A stretch of 44,977 nt of DNA, from NCBI GenBank assembly GCA_947507965.1, contig CANNQU010000022.1, positions 1 to 44,977 of the forward strand. The letters run 5' to 3'. The number at the start of each line of letters is the position of its first letter. Position 1 is the stretch's first letter. Source of the DNA: Bacteroidota bacterium. GTDB taxonomy: Bacteria; Bacteroidota; Bacteroidia; UKL13-3. Made by a program: the position numbers and the translations under genes. Below are positions 13,368-25,219 of this stretch, one piece after another. The notes below the pieces were generated by a model. The model worked only from the letters and a program-made list of their open reading frames with translations. It had not been told where the DNA came from and did no database searches.

Positions 13368-15020
13368 TTATTGAGCAGGGCTTTCAAACGTACTGTAAAA
13401 ATAGTTGGTCTCGCTTGGGAATTCTGCCGCACAAGTGTCCACCATTTTATAAGCACGTGATATTCCCATTCCTTTTCTTTTTTCATAAACTTCATCTTCC
13501 GTACAGTTTCCCAAAAGGTAGGCAATTTGGGTATCAGCGTAACCATGTTTTTTAATTTCCCAGAATAAATCTTCCGGCAAATTATTTAAATTATAACGGC
13601 GTACCTCCTGTTCCAATGACACCAATCTTTGTATTTGATTTAAAAACCAAAGATCTATTTTTGTGATTTTATAAACTGTATTTAAAGGAACGCCTAAACT
13701 TAAGGCATCTTTAATAAGAAAAACGCGATTCCAAGATGGGTGTTCCAAGCCTTCCACAATTTCTTCCAATTTACGTTTCTGTTTTCCATCAGCACCCAAT
13801 CCGTCACGCCCTATTTCCAGGCTTTGACAGGCCTTCTGAAGTGCTTCAATAAAGGTTCGGCCAATAGCCATTACCTCTCCCACACTTTTCATTTGCAATC
13901 CTAATGTTCTATCTGCCCCTTTAAACTTATCAAAATTCCAGCGAGGAATTTTAACAATGACGTAGTCAATACTCGGTTCAAAAAAAGCACTTGTTGTTTT
14001 CGTTATTTGATTTTTTAGTTCGCTGAGATTATATCCAATGGCCAGTTTCGCGGCAATCTTTGCAATGGGGTATCCCGTAGCTTTTGAAGCCAAAGCAGAG
14101 GAGCGTGATACCCGTGGATTAATTTCTATCGAGTAAACCTCCTCCGTTTCAGGGTTCATACTAAATTGAACATTGCAACCACCGGCGAAATTTCCAATAT
14201 TACGCATCATTTTAAATGCCATATTGCGCATGTTTTGAAATGCCGTATCGCTCAAGGTCATAGCCGGGGCTACGGTAATACTATCACCGGTATGAATACC
14301 CATCGGGTCAAAATTTTCAATGGTACATATTACCACGATGTTATCTAGACTATCACGCAATAATTCCAATTCATATTCCTTCCATCCCCAAACACTTTTT
14401 TCCACCAACACCTCATGTATCGGCGATGCTTTTAATCCTCTATTCAATGCTTCATCGAGCTCTTTCTTATCTTTCACAAAACCGCCTCCTGTTCCACCTA
14501 ATGTATAGCTTGGTCTTATTACTATCGGAAATCCTATTTCCTGAGCAAATTCTTTTCCCTCTAAAAAGGAGTTCGCTGTTTTACTTTGGGGTACTGGGAT
14601 CTCTAATTTGTGCATCAACTGCCGAAAAAGTTCTCTATTCTCGGTGGTGTCAATAGCTTTAATATCAACACCTATGATCGATACCTTATATTTTGCCCAC
14701 AACCCAATCTCTTCAGCCTCTTTGCAAAGATTCAATGCGGTTTGCCCGCCCATGGTAGGCAGCACACAATCAATCTTTTGTTCCTGTAAAATTTGCTCTA
14801 TACTTTGTACCGTTAATGGAAGTAAGTAAATATGATCAGCCGTAACCTTATCGGTCATAATGGTGGCGGGATTACTGTTAATTAAGGTTACTTCTATTCC
14901 CTCCTCTCGCAAACTACGACTGGCTTGGCTTCCGGCATAATCGAACTCACAGGCCTGACCAATAATTATGGGACCCGAACCAATGATTAGTACCGATTTT
15001 ATAGTTGTATTACGTGGCAT
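13368..15020 (-). CDS. carB: Carbamoyl-phosphate synthase large chain, N-terminal half only
   Basis: 550 residues. They match the first half of CarB: the carboxyphosphate ATP-grasp domain (IIGSGPIIIGQACEFDYAGS; SYTLGGTGGGF; EINPRVSRSSALASKATGYP) and the oligomerisation domain ending DTCAAEF...YFYSTFES, then a stop. E. coli CarB is ~1073 residues and its first synthetase half ends near 553, so this ORF stops at the domain boundary. The second synthetase and allosteric domains are not encoded in any frame downstream, where an unrelated convergent gene lies one base away. This suggests a split CarB, as in some archaea and thermophiles, with the other half elsewhere; loss by rearrangement is the alternative. 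It lies 29 bases after adk. No carA is present. Confidence 0.92.
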   Translation of the reverse strand: MPRNTTIKSVLIIGSGPIIIGQACEFDYAGSQASRSLREEGIEVTLINSNPATIMTDKVTADHIYLLPLTVQSIEQILQEQKIDCVLPTMGGQTALNLCKEAEEIGLWAKYKVSIIGVDIKAIDTTENRELFRQLMHKLEIPVPQSKTANSFLEGKEFAQEIGFPIVIRPSYTLGGTGGGFVKDKKELDEALNRGLKASPIHEVLVEKSVWGWKEYELELLRDSLDNIVVICTIENFDPMGIHTGDSITVAPAMTLSDTAFQNMRNMAFKMMRNIGNFAGGCNVQFSMNPETEEVYSIEINPRVSRSSALASKATGYPIAKIAAKLAIGYNLSELKNQITKTTSAFFEPSIDYVIVKIPRWNFDKFKGADRTLGLQMKSVGEVMAIGRTFIEALQKACQSLEIGRDGLGADGKQKRKLEEIVEGLEHPSWNRVFLIKDALSLGVPLNTVYKITKIDLWFLNQIQRLVSLEQEVRRYNLNNLPEDLFWEIKKHGYADTQIAYLLGNCTEDEVYEKRKGMGISRAYKMVDTCAAEFPSETNYFYSTFESPAQ

Positions 15021-15049
15021 AATTTAATTTTTCTATGGTTTACTCTTAT

Positions 15050-15619
15050 TTACTTTGATATCTCCGTGCAAAGTGCACTAAAAATAACGTCTACACTTCC
15101 TACTCCATTTACCCCTTTGTATTTATTCTGAGCCTGATAATAGCTTTTCACCGGCATGGTTTCCGCGTTATAAACCTCGATCCTTTTTTGAATGATTTTA
15201 GGGTCCGCATCATCCGAGCGACCACTAACTTTGGCGCGTTCTGTAAGTCTGTTTTTTAGTTCCTCTTCATTTACTTCTAAGGCAAGCATCATGGTGATGC
15301 CCGTATTCTTCGTAGCCAGAAAATCGTCTAAGGCTTGAGCTTGTGGGTGCGTTCGGGGAAATCCATCAAAGATATACCCATTCGCATGCGGATGCTTGTC
15401 GGCTTCCGATTGAAGCATATCAATGGTTAATGCATCAGGCACCAACTGACCTTTATCCATATAGCTTTTTGCCAATATGCCCAACTCGGTTGCATCCTTA
15501 ATATTTGACCTAAAGATATCGCCTGTACTTAAATGCACCAGATTGAATTTCTCAAGTAACTTAGCAGCTTGCGTTCCTTTTCCGGCACCTGGCGGACCGA
15601 ACAATACGATGTTTAACAT
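15050..15619 (-). CDS. adk: Adenylate kinase, short form
   Basis: 189 residues. It catalyses AMP + ATP = 2 ADP in the cytoplasm. The P-loop GPPGAGKGT is at 8-16, the NMP-binding LSTGDIFR at 30-37 and the GFPRT motif near residues 85-89. Arginines of the short LID follow (RAKVSGRSDDADPKIIQKR). The LID is the short type without the zinc-binding insertion of long Adk, consistent with the length. A perfect -7 element lies upstream. The N-terminal carB half follows 29 bases downstream, probably co-transcribed. Confidence 0.96.
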   Translation of the reverse strand: MLNIVLFGPPGAGKGTQAAKLLEKFNLVHLSTGDIFRSNIKDATELGILAKSYMDKGQLVPDALTIDMLQSEADKHPHANGYIFDGFPRTHPQAQALDDFLATKNTGITMMLALEVNEEELKNRLTERAKVSGRSDDADPKIIQKRIEVYNAETMPVKSYYQAQNKYKGVNGVGSVDVIFSALCTEISK

Positions 15620-15647
15620 GGGAAAGAAGATTGAATTATTTAGGGAG

Positions 15648-15655
15648 CAAAAATA
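15648..15655 (-). promoter_or_regulatory. -7 promoter element of adk
   Basis: CAAAAATA on the plus strand is TATTTTTG on the minus strand, a perfect TAnnTTTG match 28 bases before the adk ATG. It overlaps the tail of the upstream terminator's T-tract region, so adk has its own promoter. Confidence 0.65.
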
Positions 15656-15659
15656 AGAA

Positions 15660-15697
15660 AAATAAAAAAGCTCCTGATAATTATTTACCAGGAGCCT
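15660..15697 (-). terminator. Intrinsic terminator after the T9SS cargo gene
   Basis: Minus-strand stem GCTCCTG/CAGGAGC (15689-15695 and 15670-15676) with a 12-base AT loop, followed by a T6 tract. It is just past the stop of the 15716-16462 gene and separates it from adk. Confidence 0.88.
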
Positions 15698-15715
15698 TAA
15701 AGATGGTTAAATATG

Positions 15716-16462
15716 TTATTGTTTCACCAACTTGGTGGTAATTATGTTGTTGCCAACACGGTACTCTACCATATAAATTCCGGTAGATAACGTAGATAAA
15801 TCCAATGTGTTTTGATAGATGCCGGCCTTTTCATCCTCATTGATCACCGTTAATACTTCACGACCCTGAATATCTTTTATTACAATTTTCACGGCATTAT
15901 TTTCGGAAAGAATATAATTTAATGTGGTACTATTCACTGCCGGGTTAGGTGAAGCACTGATACTGTTTACAAGAACTGAGGTTATGTTATTGGGGTCGAG
16001 GCCTACAGAAAACATGTTCATCAAAACATTAGAGCATCCTAAATTATTGGTGGCTACCGGATCAGTAGCCGCATCGGCTGCACTACGATTGAACAATAAC
16101 ACCTCCGTACAAAATGGATGAGTTCCTTGTAGGTTATGGGTGAACGTTAATCCGGCAAATAACGGCATGGTCACCTCGTCGCCAACAGCTATTGCGAGTC
16201 CAAAAAAGGCTTTACCTAAAGGCTTACCCCCACTCATTAAATAGCTTCCATCAAGCGCCAAATAATAGGCAATAGTATCGGTAACCTTAACTGCTGCAGG
16301 TCCTAAGTTTTTTACTTTACACGTGATATCGAATGGTTTACCCGATTGGATTTCCTGGTTGTACATCGGCAAATATTGCGAAGATCGTAAATCGCAAGAT
16401 CGCTGTGCATTGGCCACGTTTAGAACAAAAATAAGAGTGAATAGAGTAAATAACTTTTTCAT
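15716..16462 (-). CDS. T9SS-sorted secreted protein with Ig-like domain
   Basis: 248 residues with a signal peptide (1-19, ending NANA). Residues ~20-150 form an Ig-like/CARDB-type beta domain (YNQEIQSGKPFDITCKVKNL, written as a pattern; DTIAYYLALDG; FTHNLQGTHPFCTEVLLFN) with scattered cysteines. The C-terminal ~80 residues are a T9SS type A sorting domain (SASPNPAVNSTTLNY; IKDIQGREVLTV; GIYMVEYRV...TTKLVKQ). The protein should be exported across the outer membrane. It has its own perfect -7 element (16492-16499) and terminator, so it is monocistronic within a housekeeping stretch. The ligand or partner is unknown. Confidence 0.87.
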   Translation of the reverse strand: MKKLFTLFTLIFVLNVANAQRSCDLRSSQYLPMYNQEIQSGKPFDITCKVKNLGPAAVKVTDTIAYYLALDGSYLMSGGKPLGKAFFGLAIAVGDEVTMPLFAGLTFTHNLQGTHPFCTEVLLFNRSAADAATDPVATNNLGCSNVLMNMFSVGLDPNNITSVLVNSISASPNPAVNSTTLNYILSENNAVKIVIKDIQGREVLTVINEDEKAGIYQNTLDLSTLSTGIYMVEYRVGNNIITTKLVKQ

Positions 16463-16491
16463 GATGGAGGTTAATTTGATGATTTATGTTT

Positions 16492-16499
16492 CAAATATA
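16492..16499 (-). promoter_or_regulatory. -7 promoter element of a T9SS cargo gene
   Basis: CAAATATA on the plus strand is TATATTTG on the minus strand, a perfect TAnnTTTG match 29 bases upstream of the ATG at 16462. Confidence 0.6.
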
Positions 16500-16521
16500 A
16501 TTAAATTAAATGTTAAATGGG

Positions 16522-17184
16522 TTAGTCTCTGCATTGCATTAAAAATAAATTTCCTGTCGCGTGTGTAATAACGATAAAACCATCTTCAGCCGTTTGGTTG
16601 CTGCTCGACGTTTTAGTACCCAACTCCAAAACGTCATCCAACAAATTGTATTTCAATCCTGAGGTAGAAACGCCCGAAACTTTACTTAGTGGCATTAAAG
16701 AGATATTCGTGTTGTTGGGGTACCATTTTTCGAAATGCTTCTTTAAGCAAAATGATTTGCTCCAATCGTCATGCATCACCAAGGTAATTTGCTCCTTATA
16801 TTTAGCCATACTGCTCAAGTTGTTCAAGGTGTGATCCGATCGCAAGCCACTCGCCCACACGATGTTTGCGGCACGATGTCCGAGTTCAATCAAATACTCT
16901 AACCCTTTTTCCAGATCCGTCTTCTCCTGGTCGGGCGTGTAAATTATTTGCAATGGGTATTGCTCCCGTTGTATTTTTTCCAGGTCCATTTCTCCATCAA
17001 AATCACCCAACAAAACATCCACTTTAATACCCTTTTCCATAACCCGGTAAATTGCTTTGTCAAGAACCAGAATAAATGGATTCCATTCTAATAGTTGACC
17101 TAAGAGCTCATCACTGCACATAGCCCCATTTGCTATTATTAGGGCAGGCTCTTGTTTATCGCGTACTACATGATGAGAACTCAT
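16522..17184 (-). CDS. thiN: Thiamine pyrophosphokinase
   Basis: 220 residues. It transfers pyrophosphate from ATP to thiamine, giving thiamine diphosphate. Family motifs are present: the early LIIANGAMC segment, LLGDFDG (about residues 58-64), the DQEKTDLEKGL block (about 85-95) with the acidic and basic residues that bind ATP and metal, and SGLRSDHTLNNL (about 111-122). The C-terminal half is the beta-sandwich thiamine-binding domain (SGVSTSGLKYNL). It is divergent from the DUF115-like gene. No TPP riboswitch or other thiamine gene is nearby. Confidence 0.9.
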   Translation of the reverse strand: MSSHHVVRDKQEPALIIANGAMCSDELLGQLLEWNPFILVLDKAIYRVMEKGIKVDVLLGDFDGEMDLEKIQREQYPLQIIYTPDQEKTDLEKGLEYLIELGHRAANIVWASGLRSDHTLNNLSSMAKYKEQITLVMHDDWSKSFCLKKHFEKWYPNNTNISLMPLSKVSGVSTSGLKYNLLDDVLELGTKTSSSNQTAEDGFIVITHATGNLFLMQCRD

Positions 17185-17240
17185 GTTACAATATTAAGGA
17201 TAAGATTTATCGCTTTCTCTACGAAGAGCGAAATAAAGAT

Positions 17241-17248
17241 TATTTTTG
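17241..17248 (+). promoter_or_regulatory. -7 promoter element of the DUF115-like gene
   Basis: TATTTTTG, a perfect TAnnTTTG match, 17 bases before the TTG start at 17266. Confidence 0.6.
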
Positions 17249-17265
17249 AATAAATTTTCAACGCC

Positions 17266-18147
17266 TTGGACATAAAATATTTTTTATCCTCATTTACACT
17301 GCATCATCTTCGGTATTTAAAACATTATGCTTATTACCTAAAACACAGGAATCTCGTTAGAAGAAATAAATTGTATTATAATAAACATCAAGGCAAGCGA
17401 TGTTTTATTATCGGGAGTGGACCCAGCATGGCATATACCGATATCAGCACGCTGGTAAATGAGCATGTCATTGCCTTGAACAGCTTTTTTGTCAATCCAC
17501 AATGCAATGAAGTTCTACTAAATAATATTCCTGAAAAATATTATTTAGTGCCTCCGAATCACCCCCCTCAAACAGAAGAAGATTGGACACAAACGTTGAG
17601 AACGATGGAAGAAAAAATAAAGTTTCCGATAACGATGTTTTGGGGTATTGATTATAATTCCGGGCATTGGCGGGAAATAATTGAGAAAAACAACTTGTTT
17701 GGTTCCTTCCCTATCCATTATTTCTTCTGTGGTATTCATACACAAGATGGTTATCGGTTAGCAAAGAAGGATATGAACCTAAGCCGCATGTCTCTCTCCG
17801 CATCAAGCACCCTCATTAATGCGCTGGAACTAGCATTATACCTTGGTTTTAGCGAAATTTATTTATTGGGTTTTGAACATAATCATATTTGTGTACAACA
17901 GCCGGAAGAATATAGGGCCTTTCCTAATGCAGTACATTATGAAAAAGAGCTTCGTATTGACTTTGGAAGCAAGCGACCCAATACGACTAATTCTAATATT
18001 CTATTAAATAATTACCACGCTTTTAAAATTTATCTTGAGATACTGAAACTTTTCCCTGATCGGAAAATTATAAACTGCACGCCAGGAGGGATATTAGATG
18101 TGTTTCAGAAAATGAAATTTGAAGATGTATTAAAACAAAAATTATAA
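17266..18147 (+). CDS. DUF115 / sialyltransferase-like Rossmann protein
   Basis: 293 residues from a TTG start (MDIKYFLSSF); no in-frame ATG precedes the conserved core. After a basic, Tyr-rich N-terminal ~40 residues comes GKRCFIIGSGPSMAYTDIS (43-61). This glycine loop is shared by DUF115/MptE-like proteins and GT42 CMP-sialic-acid transferases. Late in the protein LSASSTLINALELALYLG and EIYLLGFEHNHI match the second conserved block of that fold. I infer a sugar-transfer or nucleotide-sugar-binding enzyme for surface glycans; the substrate cannot be read from sequence. No other glycan genes flank it. The lipoprotein gene follows 9 bases downstream, so co-transcription is likely. Confidence 0.75.
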   Translation: MDIKYFLSSFTLHHLRYLKHYAYYLKHRNLVRRNKLYYNKHQGKRCFIIGSGPSMAYTDISTLVNEHVIALNSFFVNPQCNEVLLNNIPEKYYLVPPNHPPQTEEDWTQTLRTMEEKIKFPITMFWGIDYNSGHWREIIEKNNLFGSFPIHYFFCGIHTQDGYRLAKKDMNLSRMSLSASSTLINALELALYLGFSEIYLLGFEHNHICVQQPEEYRAFPNAVHYEKELRIDFGSKRPNTTNSNILLNNYHAFKIYLEILKLFPDRKIINCTPGGILDVFQKMKFEDVLKQKL

Positions 18148-18156
18148 ACTTTACCT

Positions 18157-18600
18157 ATGAAAAAAATCGCATTCTATATTCTCTTCACACTTTTTTTTAC
18201 ACGGTGTACCAATAAAAATAAAGATGATGAAATTCCGGTCGTTCCGGTAAATATTTATATCGACCTCAATTTGAACAGCAGTGCGCCATTGAATACTGTA
18301 GGCGGCTATATCTATGAAAGTGGAGGCAACAAAGGCATCCTCGTATTTCATAATTTCGATGACCGCTATTTAGCTATCGAACGTACCTGTAGTTACCACC
18401 CGTACGATACCTGCAATTTAATAACGATGGATAAAAGTGGCCTAATTTTGAAATGCGGAAAATATAATGGCAACTCCTTTATCGACTGTTGTGGATCGGC
18501 TTTTACTTTCGAAGGATTTGTAAGTAAATCGCCGGCTACCCAATCCTTAAGAACCTATAGCGCCGTTAAATCCGGCAACAGCTTGCATATCTTTAATTAG
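18157..18600 (+). CDS. Degenerate Rieske-like lipoprotein
   Basis: 147 residues. The signal peptide ends at Cys17 (TLFFTRC), a lipobox with an unusual Arg at -1. Residues ~65-147 resemble a Rieske [2Fe-2S] domain: RTCSYHPYDTC (77-86) takes the place of the C-x-H box, and DCCGSAF (110-116) plus FEGFVSKSPATQSLRTY parallel the second box (CPCHGSxF ... GPAxxPLxxY). The spacing of box 1 is C-x-x-H, and in box 2 the Cys and His ligands are Ile and Cys, so a normal cluster is unlikely. It may be a cluster-free fold held by disulfides, or bind another metal. The 3' end overlaps the convergent BNR gene by 8 bases. Confidence 0.7.
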   Translation: MKKIAFYILFTLFFTRCTNKNKDDEIPVVPVNIYIDLNLNSSAPLNTVGGYIYESGGNKGILVFHNFDDRYLAIERTCSYHPYDTCNLITMDKSGLILKCGKYNGNSFIDCCGSAFTFEGFVSKSPATQSLRTYSAVKSGNSLHIFN

Positions 18601-20116
18601 TGGGTTGATTCAACACGGTTAACTTCTTCTTTCTAAAGCCATTTTTCAGTGTTATTTTAGCCTCTCTAAAGCCTCTTGCATTCATTACAAATTCCTGTTC
18701 TCCATTACCTAGGCCTGTTATAACCTTTTTTGTTCCATTAAAAGAAATAGTAAGAACAAATTTTTTCTTTTCAGGAAATACGAAATGAATATATAGTGAA
18801 TCATTTAAAATGACCGCCTGAACACCTTCCATTAGAGGCCTATTCGTTGATGAGAGTGCAACGAAAGGAGCAGCATAAACGACAAAATTAGTATTCTCAT
18901 TAGCCGTAAACACCGGTATTATTTTTCCTTCTACGGCATCAATATCAATGTAGTCACCAAAAAAAACGGTGCTTCCCGGGGCCGCAAATGGCTTTGGTGT
19001 AATGCGGCTATTTTTCCATGTGCTACCTCCATCATCACTACTTGCTAAATATACATCAAGATAGGCTCCAGTATTGCTGTTACGTTTATCATAAAACAGT
19101 ATATATACATTTCCTGAACTGGCATCAATACTTAAATTATTGCTAAACTGATCGGCGCCATTACCGAGAGGGTCATTATTAACTCTTTGGTCTTCACTCC
19201 AATTTTCTCCCCCATCATCCGAATATTTTATAAACACATCGGCATCGCCGTTTCGGGTGTCAGCCCAATTTACATAAATACGATCTTTGAATTTTGAATT
19301 CCGATTATTGCATAACATAAAGGGCATTCCATTCGCTCTAAAGATATGCTTTACTGGAATATCCCATCCATTTACCTGACGTGCAATAACTTTATCGGTA
19401 CCAAATGATACCCCCCCATCGATACTTTTATCCAACCAAAGGTTATTCATTCCACTCCAACAAACATAGATATTTCCTTTGCTATCGGCACACGATGTTG
19501 CTCCTTCCATCGTACTATCACCATCTAAACAATCACCTGAAACATCAGAGACCGTTAGTGACTCAGACCAAGTAGCACCTTGGTTCTTCGACTGAGAGAA
19601 ACGAATTCTGGAATGATCGTTAGGGTTTTTACTTTTGTACTTATCAAATTCAGTCCAAGAAATAAATACATTACCATTTAAATCGGTATTGAGCCATTCT
19701 TTGTCTTGCACTCTGCCTTCGTGGTAACCAATACCGATATCATAAAAGCAAGTATCATAGCGAACGTTTATTTTTTGAACCACCATTTTATCGATCCAGT
19801 TTGGAAAAGACTTCCTTGGATTTTTGCCAAGATGAGCAAAATACAAATTTCCTTTACTGTCGAAATGAACCATTGGGTCTCCCCAAATTCCATTCATCGA
19901 TTCCATTTGTTTCTCCTTCCAAGTAATACCTCCGTCAACGCTATAATAATAATTATTGATATTGGATGAAGCAACAACCTGCATTGGGTTTACCGGATTA
20001 ATGGCAATACTCACTTCTTCCGGTGAATTCTCTGAATAGTTTACCTTGATGAGTTTTTGCTGTGCCTGAAGGCCAACAAAATTAAAGAGGGATATCGCAC
20101 CCATAATATATTTCAT
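18593..20116 (-). CDS. Secreted BNR/Asp-box beta-propeller protein
   Basis: 507 residues with a signal peptide (1-19, ending LQAQ). Five Asp-boxes (S-x-D-x-G-x-x-W/F) are visible: SVDGGITW (59-66), SKNQGATW (176-183), SIDGGVSF (231-238), SDDGGENW (299-306) and SDDGGSTW (360-367). These define a sialidase-type six-bladed propeller. I do not see a FRIP motif, and the arginine triad is not evident, so sialidase activity is doubtful. A binding or structural exoprotein is equally likely. The last ~90 residues are a beta module that might be a divergent sorting domain (ILTI...KITLKNGFRKKKLTV pattern), but it lacks a clear PNP motif. Confidence 0.8.
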   Translation of the reverse strand: MKYIMGAISLFNFVGLQAQQKLIKVNYSENSPEEVSIAINPVNPMQVVASSNINNYYYSVDGGITWKEKQMESMNGIWGDPMVHFDSKGNLYFAHLGKNPRKSFPNWIDKMVVQKINVRYDTCFYDIGIGYHEGRVQDKEWLNTDLNGNVFISWTEFDKYKSKNPNDHSRIRFSQSKNQGATWSESLTVSDVSGDCLDGDSTMEGATSCADSKGNIYVCWSGMNNLWLDKSIDGGVSFGTDKVIARQVNGWDIPVKHIFRANGMPFMLCNNRNSKFKDRIYVNWADTRNGDADVFIKYSDDGGENWSEDQRVNNDPLGNGADQFSNNLSIDASSGNVYILFYDKRNSNTGAYLDVYLASSDDGGSTWKNSRITPKPFAAPGSTVFFGDYIDIDAVEGKIIPVFTANENTNFVVYAAPFVALSSTNRPLMEGVQAVILNDSLYIHFVFPEKKKFVLTISFNGTKKVITGLGNGEQEFVMNARGFREAKITLKNGFRKKKLTVLNQPTN

Positions 20117-20186
20117 AAAAAACGATGTATTAGAAGTTCAAAGAAAAGGATAAATAAAATATAGTTTCCGAGAAGGATAAAATAAA

Positions 20187-20214
20187 AAAGCCATCTGAAT
20201 AAACAGATGGCTTT
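20187..20214 (-). terminator. Intrinsic terminator of the H1-like gene
   Basis: An 11-bp perfect stem, AAAGCCATCTG (20187-20197) with CAGATGGCTTT (20204-20214), and a 6-base loop. On the minus strand it is followed by a T6 tract, 39 bases past the stop of the Lys/Ala-rich gene. Confidence 0.9.
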
Positions 20215-20253
20215 CTTATTTTTAAAATGCATGTATAACATGCATACCACTTA

Positions 20254-20463
20254 TTACGCTTTTTTAGTGGCGGCTTTTTTAGGAGCAGCTTTTTTAGGAG
20301 CAGCTTTTTTAGCGGCAGCTTTTTTAGGAGCAGCTTTTTTAGGAGCAGCTTTCTTAGCAGCTGGTTTAGCAGCTGGTTTAGCAGCCGCTTTTTTTGGTGC
20401 TGCTTTCTTAGCAGCTTTTTTTGGTGCTGCTTTTTTAGCAGCTTTTTTAGTAGCTTTAGCCAT
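20254..20463 (-). CDS. Histone H1-like Lys/Ala/Pro-rich protein
   Basis: 69 residues made only of Lys, Ala, Pro, Thr and the initial Met. It is built from KKAAPKKAA-type repeats and resembles the tails of eukaryotic H1, chlamydial HctB and AlgP. It is very basic, with no acidic residues, and should be disordered until it binds nucleic acid. A perfect -7 element 27 bases upstream and a strong terminator downstream show it is a genuine gene. Nucleoid compaction or RNA binding is the likely role, by analogy. The DNA repeats make its length prone to variation, and plus-strand Ala/Phe/Leu-rich ORFs here are shadows. Confidence 0.8.
   Translation of the reverse strand: MAKATKKAAKKAAPKKAAKKAAPKKAAAKPAAKPAAKKAAPKKAAPKKAAAKKAAPKKAAPKKAATKKA
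20270..20455 (-). repeat. Tandem short repeats inside the H1-like gene
   Basis: Repeated 15-18-base units (plus strand: aggagcagcttttttaggag-like, alternating with gctggttta units) encode the KKAAPKKAA blocks. They are a probable site of slippage or recombination between units. Confidence 0.75.
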
Positions 20464-20489
20464 AATAAAATTAATTAATTTAGACAGAA

Positions 20490-20497
20490 CAAATGTA
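20490..20497 (-). promoter_or_regulatory. -7 promoter element of the H1-like gene
   Basis: CAAATGTA on the plus strand is TACATTTG on the minus strand, a perfect TAnnTTTG, 26 bases before the ATG at 20463. Confidence 0.65.
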
Positions 20498-20553
20498 GAT
20501 TCATTTTCTTACTCCACAATAGACGCATTGCGTGTGTTAATAATTTCAAAAGG

Positions 20554-20592
20554 CAGATAGGCCTGAAACACCTATAAAATATAGACTATATG
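20554..20592. repeat. Dyad-containing direct repeat, copy 1
   Basis: The core is ATAGGCCTGAAACACCTATA followed by an A/T-rich stretch and AGAC. It contains the inverted pair ATAGG...CCTAT. It matches copy 2 (20871-20910) in the same orientation at roughly four-fifths of positions. Confidence 0.55.
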
Positions 20593-20870
20593 CCATATGA
20601 TAAGAATGAAAAAAGTTTTACACATATATTTCAAAAAACGAAGTGCCCTCAGAATTTATTTCTTTACTTCTTGAAATCCTTTGGTGGATAGTGTTTCAAG
20701 CTGTTCCAATAAATTAATAATTTTAAAAACTTCTCTTTAAAGATAGAATTTGAATTTTCTTTGCCAATGATATTTAAAAATAAATGACTGGTTTTTTGCT
20801 TCAATACCCTTTTTATGAAAACGGTTTTTCCTTTCGTTTTCTTTTTAACAACACAAAAATAAAATTTACC

Positions 20871-20910
20871 TATAGGCCTGTAATACCTATAAACAAAGAC
20901 GTTATAGGCA
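20871..20910. repeat. Dyad-containing direct repeat, copy 2
   Basis: The core is TATAGGCCTGTAATACCTAT, then AAACAAAGACGTTATAGGC. The inverted pair TATAGG...CCTATA is preserved although the loop bases differ from copy 1. It is an operator-like or hairpin-forming site about 317 bases from copy 1. Confidence 0.55.
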
Positions 20911-20986
20911 CAACAAAAATGAAAAAGTAATTCCACTTAAAGATATAATGTAGTTTATTTTCTATTCATACAGCGATTCTGAGGCT

Positions 20987-21013
20987 AAAAAAAAACATGG
21001 TTTTACGGCCATG
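20987..21013 (-). terminator. Orphan minus-strand intrinsic terminator-like hairpin
   Basis: On the minus strand CATGG, an 8-base loop and CCATG (21013-20996) are followed by nine T residues (20995-20987). No annotated minus-strand gene ends here. It could end an unannotated small transcript starting in 21014-21164, or antisense transcription of the DUF6929 gene. Confidence 0.45.
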
Positions 21014-21164
21014 AGTGTATTTTTATTTGAACGCTTTTTTCAAATTGAATTTACAATTACACCGATAAATGTTTTTCTGAAACTTCATTTTTAAAATAAA
21101 ATCGGGTAATTTGTTTGCTAGGATAAAACGAAAATGTATTTTAGCGGTATTATTTTACAACCGC

Positions 21165-22049
21165 ATGAAACTTCAATTACTTCAGTCGAAAATATTTGAT
21201 TCTATTCCTTCGGGATCTGGTATCGAAAAATGGCAAGACAAAATTTATATCGTAGGAGACGACAGTAATTTTTTATTTGAGTTAAACAATGATTGGGAGT
21301 TAACAAAAGCGATACGACTTTTCGACCGACCAACAGATGAGAACGAAAGAATCATGAAGCCGATAAAGCCCGACCTTGAAGCGGTGACCCTTGTTCCACC
21401 GAGTCATTTGTTAGCCATGGGTTCGGGTACTCTACCGGAGTTGCGTGATGTAGGTGTGCTTTTAAATCTTGCAGCACAAGATGAACTTGAATATTTGAAT
21501 TTCAATGAAATATATGAAACGCTCAGAAGTATTACCTCACAGGTAAATATTGAAGGGGCTTGTAATGTAGATGATAAAATAATTCTATTAAATAGAGGAG
21601 ATAATCAGCATTCCAATCAACTCATCATCACGAATTGGAATAGGAAGCAACTCTCTGTTGAGAAACAACTGGATATTCATTTTTTAGATTTGCCTCAGAT
21701 AGAAAATATCAATGCCGGTTTTACGGGATGTGTTCATTTACCTGAAACGGATATGATGATTTTTTGTGCTTCCGCAGAAGACACCTCCAATGGATATGAC
21801 GACGGAATGATAAAAGGAAGTTTGTTGGGTGTGATGCAAAACTTCACCTCTCAAATTGCGCATCATGAAGTAAAAATATCAGATATAATGATACCCGAAT
21901 TCTTTAAAGGCAAGAAAATCGAATCGGTATGTATCGATGAATTTATAAATAGAAATGAAGTTACCATCTTAGTTGTTGCCGATAACGATAAAGGGAAAAC
22001 AGAGCTAATGCGTTTGCACATGTCCTTTTCAGATTCGTTTTTTAGGTAA
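21165..22049 (+). CDS. DUF6929-type protein
   Basis: About 294 residues from ATG 21165 (MKLQLLQSKIFDSIPSGSGI); an upstream in-frame start at 21111 would add 18 residues that overlap a promoter-like TATTTTAG (21137-21144). There is no signal peptide. The pattern of short beta-hairpins (DKIYIVGDDSNFLFELN; LEAVTLVPPSHLLAMGSG; NIEGACNVDDKIILLNRGDN; GFTGCVHLPETDMMIFCASAEDT, cited as patterns) indicates a cytoplasmic beta-propeller of the Bacteroidota DUF6929 type. Biochemical function is unknown. The reductase gene begins 6 bases after its stop, so the two form an operon. Confidence 0.75.
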   Translation: MKLQLLQSKIFDSIPSGSGIEKWQDKIYIVGDDSNFLFELNNDWELTKAIRLFDRPTDENERIMKPIKPDLEAVTLVPPSHLLAMGSGTLPELRDVGVLLNLAAQDELEYLNFNEIYETLRSITSQVNIEGACNVDDKIILLNRGDNQHSNQLIITNWNRKQLSVEKQLDIHFLDLPQIENINAGFTGCVHLPETDMMIFCASAEDTSNGYDDGMIKGSLLGVMQNFTSQIAHHEVKISDIMIPEFFKGKKIESVCIDEFINRNEVTILVVADNDKGKTELMRLHMSFSDSFFR

Positions 22050-22055
22050 TAAAAC

Positions 22056-23051
22056 ATGATATTAGTTAGCGGCGCTACTGGCTTTTTAGGATCTTATGTC
22101 GTGTGTGAGTTACTCCTGCAAAACAAAAAGGTGCGTGCCCTTAAGAGAGCCTCCAGCACCCTCACTGAATTTGAGTTTATATGCACGGTGAATCATATTT
22201 CTGAGTTGCAACTTCAAAATTTAACCTGGTTTACTGCCGACATTTTAGAAATAGCTGATTTGGAAATAGCATTCCAAGAGGTAGATGAAGTAATCCATTG
22301 TGCCGGAATGGTTTCTTTTGTTCCGAAGGACATGGAAGAAATGGTACGCATCAATGTGGAGGGTACGGCCAACATGGTAAATACTGCATTACATCAGAAG
22401 GTACATAAATTCGGATATATAAGTAGTATCGCAGCCATTGGCAGAGGAAACAACGAGAACCTCATCGATGAGAATACAAAATGGGAAACGAGTGCTAATA
22501 ATACCAACTACGCTGAAACCAAATTCGCCGCCGAGATGGAAGTATGGCGTGGCATACAGGAAGGACTAAATGCTGTAATTGTAAACCCCGGGATAATTAT
22601 TGGTGCTTGTGATTTCACACGAGGTACCGGCAAAATGTTTGAGATAGGCAAAAAAGGATTATCCTTCTATACGCCTGGCATCAATGGTTTTGTTGATGTA
22701 AGAGATGTAACCAAATGTCTGCTACAACTATTGGAGAGAAATATTTTCAATGAACGCTTCATTCTGGTTTCGGAAAACTATGCCTTCAAAAGGTTTTATG
22801 ACGAAGTTGCAGATGACCTTCATAAAACAAAACCAAAATACAATACGCCTTTTTGGTTAGCTAAGCTAGGCTACCAATTTTTGGCTTTGAAAAGTTTCTT
22901 CACCGGTAGAAAACCATTACTCACCAAAGAAACAACCTTTGCCGCCTACCGAAAGTTTTACTACAACAATGCCAAAATAAAGAAGGCATTGGATTTCGAA
23001 TTTATTCAAGTAAAAGAAACCATTGGCTGGACTTGCGAGTGGTATAGATGA
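22056..23051 (+). CDS. NAD(P)-dependent epimerase/dehydratase (extended SDR)
   Basis: 331 residues. The Rossmann motif GATGFLG is at 6-12, the AGMVSF/NVEGT region follows (about residues 88-108), and a YAETK (Y-x-x-x-K) catalytic pair comes later. The PGIIIGACDFTRGTG block is typical of dihydroflavonol-4-reductase-like and hopanoid-associated extended SDRs. The C-terminus carries a hydrophobic helix and basic residues. The substrate is unknown; roles in aldehyde, sterol-like or sugar reduction all occur in this family. It is co-transcribed with the DUF6929 gene (6-base gap). Confidence 0.85.
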   Translation: MILVSGATGFLGSYVVCELLLQNKKVRALKRASSTLTEFEFICTVNHISELQLQNLTWFTADILEIADLEIAFQEVDEVIHCAGMVSFVPKDMEEMVRINVEGTANMVNTALHQKVHKFGYISSIAAIGRGNNENLIDENTKWETSANNTNYAETKFAAEMEVWRGIQEGLNAVIVNPGIIIGACDFTRGTGKMFEIGKKGLSFYTPGINGFVDVRDVTKCLLQLLERNIFNERFILVSENYAFKRFYDEVADDLHKTKPKYNTPFWLAKLGYQFLALKSFFTGRKPLLTKETTFAAYRKFYYNNAKIKKALDFEFIQVKETIGWTCEWYR

Positions 23052-23104
23052 TTTAATTGTTGATTCTGGTTCGGTAATACACAAATCTTTATTATTTTCG
23101 CTTT

Positions 23105-25219
23105 GTGTTATTGTTTACGATTATTACCGAGGAGCCGTGGTGGTTCATCTTGTTTTGCATTATTCTGGGGGCGGCTTATGCGCTAATTCTTTACCCTGTA
23201 AAATTATTAAAGACCGTTGAAGGTAAAAAGCCAAAATTACTTCGCTTCATGGCTGTATTACGCTTTTTTATTATCTTTTTTCTATCCTATTTACTCCTCT
23301 CGCCACTAATAAAGTCATACTTACGCGAAGTACAGAAACCCATTATTGTGCTCGCCCAGGATAATTCACAATCTATTTTACTTAATAAAGACTCTTCCTT
23401 TTATAAAACAGATTATCTGAAGAATTTGGAGCAACTTAAGAATACCCTGAGTGAAAAATTCGAGGTGCAATATTATAGTTTCGGCAAAACACTGAACGAA
23501 ACCCCTTCTATTGAATTTAATGAGAAGCAGACCAATATTAGCGCGCTACTGGATGCCGTATATGATAAATATGAAGGGCAAAATTTAGGTGCCATAATTT
23601 TAGCAAGCGACGGTATTTATAACCAGGGAAGTAACCCGTTGTATAACAATAAAAAACTTAAAACAACAATATATACATTGGCTTTAGGCGATACCACCTT
23701 ACCTCGCGACGTCATCGTAAAAAAAGTAAGAATCAATTCGATTGCCTATCTCGGAAACTCCTTTCCAATAGAAATTGAAGCAGATGCTTATGGTTATAAC
23801 GGAGAGAATCTCAGTGTAACGGTAGTCCATAACGGCCAAACAGAATCAATTCAGAATATAACGGCCACTTCTTCACGTTTCACCAAAACCCTGCTTTTAC
23901 ATTTTGATGCCAAAGTAAAGGGAATGCAGCGCTACACCATTAGGATCAATAAGCACCAAGGAGAATTGAGTTTTTTGAATAATACGAAAGATGTATTTAT
24001 TGATGTTATTGATGGAAGGCAAAAAATATTATTGCTGGCCGGCGCACCCCACCCTGATTTAGGAGCATTGAAAAACGCTATCGAAACGAATCAAAATTAT
24101 GAAATTCAACTATTATATGCAAAAGCACTCCCGGTAGATATTACCACAAAGTTACACGAATACAGTTTAATTATTCTTCATCAAATTCCATCAACTGAAT
24201 TCTCTACAAAAAGCCTATTTGATGCCCTCGATAAAATAAAGATTCCACGTCTCTATATTTTGGGCGGTCAAAGCAATTTATCCGTATTCTACAGTTTAAA
24301 TGAGGGACTAAGTATTGGCAATAATCGAGGGACTACAAACGATGCATTACCAAGACTCAATAGCAATTTTAATTTATTTACACTAAGTGATGAAACACAG
24401 AACAATTTAAATAAATTCCCACCATTACAAGTGCCCTTTGGAAATTATAATGCTGCAGGCGATGCCCACATTTTGTTTAAGCAACAAATAGGTGCCACCC
24501 TTAGTGATATGCCACTCCTTTTATTTACGAATAAAAACGACTATAAGACGGGCATTATTTGTGGGGAAGGAATTTGGCGATGGCGTATTCAAGAATATGC
24601 TCAAACAGAGTCGCAGAAGGCATCGAATGAAGTACTAACGAAAACCATTCAATATCTTTCTTCAAAAGATGATAAACGTTTACTCCGGATTATTTCGGTG
24701 CAAAAAACATTTGAAGAAAACGAAAATGTACTATTCGATGCCGAAGTATATACTCCGAGCTATGAACTCACCAATGAACCAGAAGTGAGTTATAAAATTA
24801 TTAATGAAGAAGGAAAAACATTCGACTACCAATTTAGCAAGAGTGGAAAATCATATCATTTAGATTGTGGCATTTTGCCGGCTGGAAGCTATCGTTATTT
24901 TGCCGCCACGCAATCGGGTGGGAGACCCGAAAATGTTTCAGGTCAATTTACGGTAATTCCATTACAGGCTGAATTCACTGAAACAGTAGCGAATCATCAA
25001 TTACTTGCCTCCTTGTCGTATATGCATAATGGAAAGCTTTTTTATGCAAAGGAAATGCAAAAAATAGTCGATGAAATAATAGCCAACCAAACCATTAAAC
25101 CACTTAGCTATGCACACCAACGTCTAGAAGACTTAATAAATTTGAAGTGGATTTTTGCCCTTCTACTGTTTACATTAACCGCAGAATGGTTCTTTAGAAA
25201 ACGGGAAGGTGGGTACTAA
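23105..25219 (+). CDS. VWA-domain membrane protein
   Basis: About 704 residues from GTG 23105; TTG at 23111 is an equally good start, because a near-consensus -7 element (TATTTTCG, 23093-23100) sits only 4 bases before the GTG. Two N-terminal membrane segments (about 13-31 and 48-68) precede a von Willebrand A-like domain. Its MIDAS motif DNSQS is at 86-90 and the distal LASDGIYNQGSNP follows. Ig-like beta domains and a GATase-like segment (KILLLAGAPHPDLGALKNAI) come next, then one C-terminal membrane helix (about 683-698). It is related in layout to BatA-type aerotolerance and MoxR-associated proteins, but no MoxR or Bat partner is near. Confidence 0.8.
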   Translation: MLLFTIITEEPWWFILFCIILGAAYALILYPVKLLKTVEGKKPKLLRFMAVLRFFIIFFLSYLLLSPLIKSYLREVQKPIIVLAQDNSQSILLNKDSSFYKTDYLKNLEQLKNTLSEKFEVQYYSFGKTLNETPSIEFNEKQTNISALLDAVYDKYEGQNLGAIILASDGIYNQGSNPLYNNKKLKTTIYTLALGDTTLPRDVIVKKVRINSIAYLGNSFPIEIEADAYGYNGENLSVTVVHNGQTESIQNITATSSRFTKTLLLHFDAKVKGMQRYTIRINKHQGELSFLNNTKDVFIDVIDGRQKILLLAGAPHPDLGALKNAIETNQNYEIQLLYAKALPVDITTKLHEYSLIILHQIPSTEFSTKSLFDALDKIKIPRLYILGGQSNLSVFYSLNEGLSIGNNRGTTNDALPRLNSNFNLFTLSDETQNNLNKFPPLQVPFGNYNAAGDAHILFKQQIGATLSDMPLLLFTNKNDYKTGIICGEGIWRWRIQEYAQTESQKASNEVLTKTIQYLSSKDDKRLLRIISVQKTFEENENVLFDAEVYTPSYELTNEPEVSYKIINEEGKTFDYQFSKSGKSYHLDCGILPAGSYRYFAATQSGGRPENVSGQFTVIPLQAEFTETVANHQLLASLSYMHNGKLFYAKEMQKIVDEIIANQTIKPLSYAHQRLEDLINLKWIFALLLFTLTAEWFFRKREGGY

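Follow-up and report, generated by a model that had tools for sequence, protein, structure and literature searches.

A predicted Rieske-fold lipoprotein family of the Bacteroidia that lacks the standard [2Fe-2S] ligands and carries probable paired disulfides

The 44,977-nucleotide stretch of DNA analysed here (the window) carries, at 18157–18600 of its forward strand, a gene for a small exported protein that almost certainly combines a Rieske-type fold with the loss of the ligands that hold the Rieske cluster. In the mechanism we propose, this product would be a Sec-exported envelope protein, presumably lipid-anchored, with a globular Rieske domain that would no longer bind a [2Fe-2S] cluster, both His ligands having been lost and the His of box 2 having become Cys. 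The finger loops that formerly gripped the cluster would be stapled by two disulfides, C86–C111, which would correspond to the old structural disulfide, and C78–C112, which would lie across the empty site. Such a protein would not be an electron carrier and would act as a stable periplasmic docking module for a class-wide partner. Taken as a whole, the reading of the protein as a Rieske module without a cluster, stapled by disulfides and binding an envelope partner, is, in our view, reasonably probable.

Gene product and predicted fold

The open reading frame is genuine, starts with ATG and encodes 147 residues. It is present as a single copy, and the gene is the only match in its own genome at E ≤ 0.001. 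The gene and its main parts are as follows.

18157..18600, + strand: gene for a 147-aa lipoprotein with a predicted Rieske fold and without the standard [2Fe-2S] ligands (open reading frame list, fold, profile)
18157..18204, + strand: Sec-type lipoprotein signal, residues 1–16, with no twin-Arg motif (predicted from sequence)
18205..18207, + strand: C17, the presumed lipidated Cys, with an atypical Arg at −1; the Cys is invariant in a 28-row alignment
18244..18597, + strand: predicted Rieske-fold domain, residues 30–147 (VIA-align model range 29–147)

An AlphaFold2 model of the protein, built from 28 sequences of the same taxonomic family, has a pLDDT of 85.3 and a pTM of 0.75. Every one of the 50 matches listed by VIA is a Rieske protein or a complex that includes one, the best being 5cxm (Z 11.7, rmsd 2.4 over 98 residues), and Foldseek searches with the same model gave two matches at E ≤ 0.001, both to Rieske proteins. 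The model of a relative that has no insertion in its second finger (L163; pLDDT 88.7) pointed to the same fold, with 25 matches in Foldseek at E ≤ 0.001 and a best VIA Z of 10.3. In phmmer searches, 5cxm was the sole solved structure among the matches listed at E ≤ 10 (E 0.004), and the aligned region, residues 94–143, bears out the original prediction that the C-terminal half of the protein is Rieske-like; the family profile found the same structure at E 0.001. HHalign aligned the family profile with 19 ligand-complete Rieske relatives from the phylum at a probability of 99.5 (E 2.9e-23), and a profile of 30 uninserted relatives aligned with the ligand-complete set at a probability of 99.6. 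Thus, the Rieske β-sandwich fold of the window protein is well supported as a prediction; an unrelated predicted fold, which had been named beforehand as a refuting outcome, was not obtained. The tail motif ascribed to the protein at the outset, GPA-x-x-PL-x-x-Y, does not fit, as the window protein reads SPATQSLRTY and GPA is the consensus of the family.

Domain models capture this relationship weakly. In the Pfam scan the window protein hit a single, unrelated model, below threshold; the NCBIfam scan gave no match, and neither PF00355 nor PF13806 had a match listed for it at E ≤ 10. PF00355 matched 3 of the 28 same-family proteins (best E 0.0054) and 12 of the 30 uninserted relatives (best E 0.0063), all weakly, as expected for divergent Rieske domains. 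These 30 relatives received no Pfam or NCBIfam name (best Rieske-type E 0.0023 and 0.0003, respectively); the first protein in each scan, for which cut-offs are known, scores below them. The family is unnamed in the Pfam and NCBIfam versions searched. In the window's own genome, PF00355 matches another locus only and not 18157–18600.

Cluster ligands and paired cysteines

For the family-wide comparison, 263 hits were merged into 185 distinct sequences, comprising 166 family members above 80 bits and 19 proteins below 80 bits. With profile A3 the 166 family members score at least 84.7 bits and the 19, which are ligand-complete Rieske proteins, at most 66.3 bits; the latter set is small and was drawn from the weak hits of the same searches. 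A single branch with an SH-aLRT of 99 splits the 166 from the 19 in a tree that was obtained by a quick search over 115 columns and has long branches. The positions at issue are listed below, with residue counts among the 166 relatives.

18388..18390, + strand: C78, position of the box-1 Cys ligand and proposed disulfide partner of C112; Cys in 151 of 166
18394..18396, + strand: Y80, position of the box-1 His, lost here; Tyr 103, Asn 24, Phe 20, Val 8, Leu 3, His 3, Ala 3 and Trp 2 of 166, and His in 19 of 19 ligand-complete proteins
18412..18414, + strand: C86, proposed to form a structural disulfide with C111 (co-occurrence in the 166 relatives)
18454..18456, + strand: C100, position of the box-2 Cys ligand (HHalign and MAFFT); Asp in 86 and Cys in 79 of 166
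18457..18483, + strand: nine-residue insertion, residues 101–109, predicted to lengthen the second cluster-binding finger into a β-hairpin (HHalign gap, model strands)
18487..18489, + strand: C111, second Cys position of C-P-C-H and proposed partner of C86 (phmmer, MAFFT, HHalign)
18490..18492, + strand: C112, position of the box-2 His ligand and proposed partner of C78; Cys 136, Asp 17, Ser 9, Asn 3 and Glu 1 of 166

Box 1 of the window protein reads T-C78-S-Y-H81 and box 2 reads I-D-C111-C112-G-S, the latter confirming the IDCCGS sequence reported for it earlier. All 19 ligand-complete proteins have C78, H80, C100 and H112, and all 19 match PF00355. By contrast, none of the 166 family members keeps all four ligands; 12 keep none, 77 one, 75 two and 2 three, so that the loss of standard ligands first noticed in the window protein is a property of the family. 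The PF00355 ligand criterion is a C-x-H plus a C-x-x-H, and the window protein has Y80 and C112 in place of the two His residues; because of this outcome the family is kept out of PF00355. The original prediction had also pointed to a C-x-x-H spacing in box 1. That spacing is indeed present in the window protein, but the true Rieske His aligns to position 80, and His is found at position 81 in 12 of 166 relatives, so that a role for H81 finds no support. The cysteines named together with H81 for a check of conservation fared better, with C111 retained in 160 of 166 and C78, C86 and C112 conserved also; within the CCGS segment S114 is kept in 142 relatives, whereas G113 is found in 60. Non-conservation of this segment, the other outcome named beforehand as refuting, was not observed, its CC pair being conserved.

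These counts bear on the possibility that the protein is an ordinary Rieske electron carrier whose ligands have shifted and been misread. Its fold and tail do resemble those of Rieske proteins. However, His occurs at the box-2 position in 0 of 166 and at the box-1 position in 3 of 166 family members, the alignment contradicts a two-Cys two-His site, and the window's own genome encodes, at another locus, a Rieske protein (L117) that has all its ligands and a Tat-like signal. We consider a shifted-ligand carrier highly improbable, and a role as electron carrier was rejected on the loss of ligands.

The altered boxes take several forms. Across the sequenced lineages, C-x-C-D, C-x-C-C and D-x-C-C states are found, with and without the insertion. 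The C-x-C-D form (or its E variant), which has both old Cys ligand positions and no His, occurs in 15 of 166 relatives, in taxonomic family f5 (for example, L069, L076 and L083), while in four members from family f2 (L070, L071, L073 and L074) the box-1 Cys lies one residue upstream, in D-R-C-S-S/T, and C112 is absent.

The cysteines come and go in pairs. Of the 166 relatives, 160 have Cys at both 86 and 111 and 6 have it at neither, one of the 6 (L087) because of gaps; no relative has one without the other. For C78 and C112, both are present in 136 relatives and neither in 15, C78 stands alone in 15, and C112 never does so. The class with neither includes the four f2 members with a Cys immediately upstream of position 78. 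The 15 sequences with C78 alone all belong to f5 and have Cys at 100 and D or E at 112; in these C78 may, judging from the alignment, pair with C100. Three further f5 members have C100 and no C78.

The tree requires four changes at C86 and four at C111, and the two agree in three of three independent pairs on supported branches; a fourth pair must agree as well, because both positions have the same state in every one of the 166 rows. C78 changes eight times and C112 seven times; here supported branches give two pairs, of which, as averages, about one agrees and about one has no C112 change, and for both Cys pairs sign tests on such small numbers are underpowered and cannot reach 0.05. When losses were scattered at random according to branch length, none of 200,000 trials reached the overlap seen for 86/111 and 25 of 200,000 reached that for 78/112. 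No joint loss occurs for any of the four cross-pairs tested (78/86, 86/112, 78/111 and 111/112). The two pairs are lost separately, whereas the ligands of a four-Cys metal site should disappear as a set, and we therefore favour two disulfides. Paired loss makes a C86–C111 disulfide very likely and a C78–C112 disulfide across the empty cluster site likely, with C86–C111 much the better supported of the two. The disulfides for which the original prediction had left room are to this extent supported by the family's sequences. That prediction had counted six cysteines after the lipobox; there are five (C78, C86, C100, C111 and C112), and six in total. Five is an odd number, which leaves one unpaired.

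The placement of C100 depends on the method, as ungapped phmmer sets I109 at the box-2 Cys whereas HHalign and MAFFT set C100 there. In the HHalign alignment D110, C111 and C112 fall, after the insertion, on P, N and H of C-P-N-H, and we take C100 to be the equivalent of the canonical box-2 Cys. An insertion of at least five residues is present in 59 of 166 relatives, namely 45 of 45 from the window's taxonomic family and 14 from seven other families. The strands of the hairpin span residues 97–104 and 107–117 in the window model versus 97–100 and 106–108 in the model of the uninserted L163. C100 is retained in the window's lineage and is invariant in the 28-row same-family alignment; 87 of 166 relatives are without it, and 12 have none of C78, C100 and C112.

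In the window's order, these residues might have been put to another use, with C78, C100 and C112 forming a new thiol site on the lengthened fingers, either a periplasmic thiolate metal site or a thiol relay. C86–C111 would then hold the loops, two of the site cysteines would sit at old cluster-Cys positions and the third would replace a His. We regard such a site as unlikely, and its two forms, both limited to lineages with C100, can be weighed separately. In the first, which concerns the window's lineage, C78, C100 and C112, with Y80, C111 or water, would bind an all-Cys cluster or a mononuclear metal (Cu or Zn, for example). The alignment of C100 with the canonical box-2 Cys is in keeping with this, and so is the finding that both proteins of the window's family that have lost C86 and C111 (L006 and L008) keep C78, C100 and C112. 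Nevertheless, 71 of 166 relatives have no Cys at position 100 though C78, C86, C111 and C112 are all kept, the two Cys pairs are lost independently, unlike the ligands of one four-Cys site, and with no Tat-like signal a cytoplasm-built Fe–S cluster is unlikely; a metal site is thus rather improbable. In the second, the protein would be a thiol–disulfide redox protein in which C78–C112 is reversible and C100 is the attacking or resolving thiol, as the odd number of cysteines and the placing of C100, which is invariant in 28 rows and lies close to the CC pair in the extended hairpin, might suggest. No thiol–disulfide oxidoreductase is found among the Pfam, NCBIfam and VIA matches listed, C100 is missing from the 87 relatives noted above, and 12 have none of the three cysteines; we give this reading little weight.

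Export route and distribution of the family

The reading that we prefer, a cluster-free domain stapled by two disulfides, is also in keeping with the export signals. According to PMC3623810, most insertion of Fe–S and similar cofactors takes place in the cytoplasm, and the proteins that receive them are exported by Tat. A strict Tat-like motif, R-(R/K)-x-F-(L/I/F) within the 40 residues upstream of the presumed lipid Cys, is found in 19 of 19 ligand-complete proteins versus 3 of 166 family members, and a looser form in 19 of 19 versus 7 of 166, the lipid Cys and signal peptides having been located by a simple hydrophobicity rule. Given this difference in the strict motif, the family seems to be exported as a cofactor-free protein, and it appears to have abandoned Tat export on losing the cluster.

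The residue before C17 is an Arg in the window protein (FTR-C), which is unusual for a lipobox, and a Gln in three genus mates, and for this reason lipidation within the window's genus is doubtful. The original prediction placed the domain on the cell surface. PMC5080379 gives C-X-K-(D/E)2-X as the optimal surface-export motif. Of the 166 relatives, 12 have this form and 20 have at least one of the four forms tested. The window protein does not match the optimal form, as it reads C-TNKNKDDE, with K-D-D-E at +6 to +9 and no K at +3, although the host's own export rules may differ. Surface display is unsupported by these counts, and since the motif is rare in the family, the protein is expected, from its sequence, to face the periplasm.

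The family is widespread. Relatives at E ≤ 0.001 were found in 61 of 64 genomes of the window's taxonomic family. In the order set, whose 46 genomes all come from that same family, 45 match; one of these, G022, does so only weakly (E 4.9e-4), at a locus (L107) that encodes a ligand-complete protein. G022 belongs to the window's genus and is listed as 99% complete, and because a close relative is missing there the gene may be dispensable in it. Among 396 sampled genomes of the class, 330 match at E ≤ 1e-6 and about 307 at E ≤ 1e-20, the best matches of the other 23 of the 330 (a hand count) being weaker than E 1e-20 and possibly ligand-complete Rieske proteins. Sampling of 296 genomes across the phylum gave no match at E ≤ 1e-20 outside the class and ten weaker ones, of which the four examined (G082, G145, G263 and G275) are all ligand-complete. 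A phylum search with profile A1, which matched 81 of 247 genomes at E ≤ 0.001, included ligand-complete proteins and was excluded from the estimate of spread.

This distribution also decides against a relic of one lineage or a pseudogene in decay. Such a reading could draw on the missing ligands and the short length, and on nothing further; the frame is intact, the gene is single-copy, structural residues are invariant in the 28-row alignment, and relatives are present in most genomes of the family and class samples. On spread and conservation, a pseudogene or product of local decay was rejected as hardly credible.

Genomic surroundings and known Rieske proteins

The gene immediately upstream of the lipoprotein gene is the following.

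17266..18147, + strand: upstream gene, possibly co-transcribed, with a weak MptE-like match below the cut-off; 9-bp gap to the lipoprotein gene

A neighbour of this type is also found at loci L110 and L111 and is absent at L112. No neighbouring gene is constant among the 48 loci compared, and an operon partner was rejected on this ground; the docking role of the protein is accordingly weakly inferred and a guess. Arrangements that recur, with genes named by reading their sequences, are a putative 3-hydroxyacyl-CoA dehydrogenase gene directly upstream at 16 of 48 loci and one gene further away at 4, a pheS-like gene at 6 of 48, and a divergent greA adjoining the homologue at 11 of 11 f5 loci examined. 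Anti-phage models had no match to the 18157–18600 protein, and promoters and terminators did not exceed the counts in shuffled sequence.

Several other genes of the window are of note in their own right. A BNR-repeat gene at 18593–20116 (− strand) is convergent with the lipoprotein gene and overlaps its 3′ end by 8 bp (18593–18600). At 13368–15020 (− strand) lies a gene for a 550-aa homologue of the carbamoyl-phosphate synthase large chain that has Pfam domains D1–D3 only, presumably about half of the usual carB length, and is possibly a split carB; a similar gene at each of seven other loci clusters with it. The product of 15716–16462 (− strand) has a Por secretion system C-terminal sorting domain and is, on that basis, a probable type 9 secretion cargo. 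A 704-aa protein encoded at 23105–25219 (+ strand) has no Pfam match at E ≤ 0.01 and is retained in the loci of three genus mates.

The original prediction regarded a cluster-free Rieske domain as a new use of the fold. Such a use is already known, as NirD, the small subunit of NADH nitrite reductase, has, like the window family, a Rieske fold lacking the ligand motifs; the E. coli K-12 protein has neither C-x-H nor C-x-x-H and matches PF13806 (Rieske_2) at E 8.8e-41, and the fold searches also matched the structures 4aiv and 3c0d, which are small subunits of nitrite reductase. NirD differs in having no visible signal peptide and three scattered cysteines, whereas the window family has an export signal and paired cysteines. 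PF13806 does not match the window protein, five of the 30 uninserted relatives match it weakly (best E 0.0023), and no nirB-like gene is present among the ten neighbouring window proteins scanned (13368–25216).

The ligand-complete Rieske proteins of the phylum (L090–L109 and L117) have the same fold family and tail as the window family but retain C-x-H and C-x-x-H and their Tat-like signal. L117 (G000:C13:41906-42094), from the window's own genome, starts MQRKAFLK and has C-T-H and C-T-L-H. Among the solved structures listed, the best match in both structure and sequence is the plasma-membrane Rieske protein PetC3 (5cxm), which differs in having the box-2 C-x-x-H that is altered in the window protein. 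The arsenite oxidase small subunit AioB (1g8k, 4aay, 8r3a and 8rtl) has the Rieske fold in common and differs as part of a redox enzyme. Titles of AioB entries name mutants at paired positions, C65F-C80G and F108C-G123C, that are reminiscent of C86/C111, to which we assume the engineered positions correspond.

A BAM-complex subunit was also considered and rejected; the word ‘Rieske’ is absent from the main texts of two 2025 papers on the BAM complex of Bacteroidota, PMC12611786 and PMC12578637, and no subunit described in their keyword passages fits. The ‘Rieske’ gene in PMC9478572 is described as being of the respiratory type, and for that reason no link to it is made. In the literature searched, coverage of which was partial so that absence is unproven, no paper on the window's protein family was found.

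The family would seem to represent a natural swap of an Fe–S cluster for disulfides, with several states preserved across lineages, and it raises the question of how a cluster fold survives without its cluster. Should the thiol-site reading hold for the window's order, a Rieske protein would there have exchanged iron–sulfur for sulfur chemistry. Because the family is conserved in most of the sampled genomes of the class, it is suggested to have a role in the envelope, one to which the searches made here assigned no specific function.
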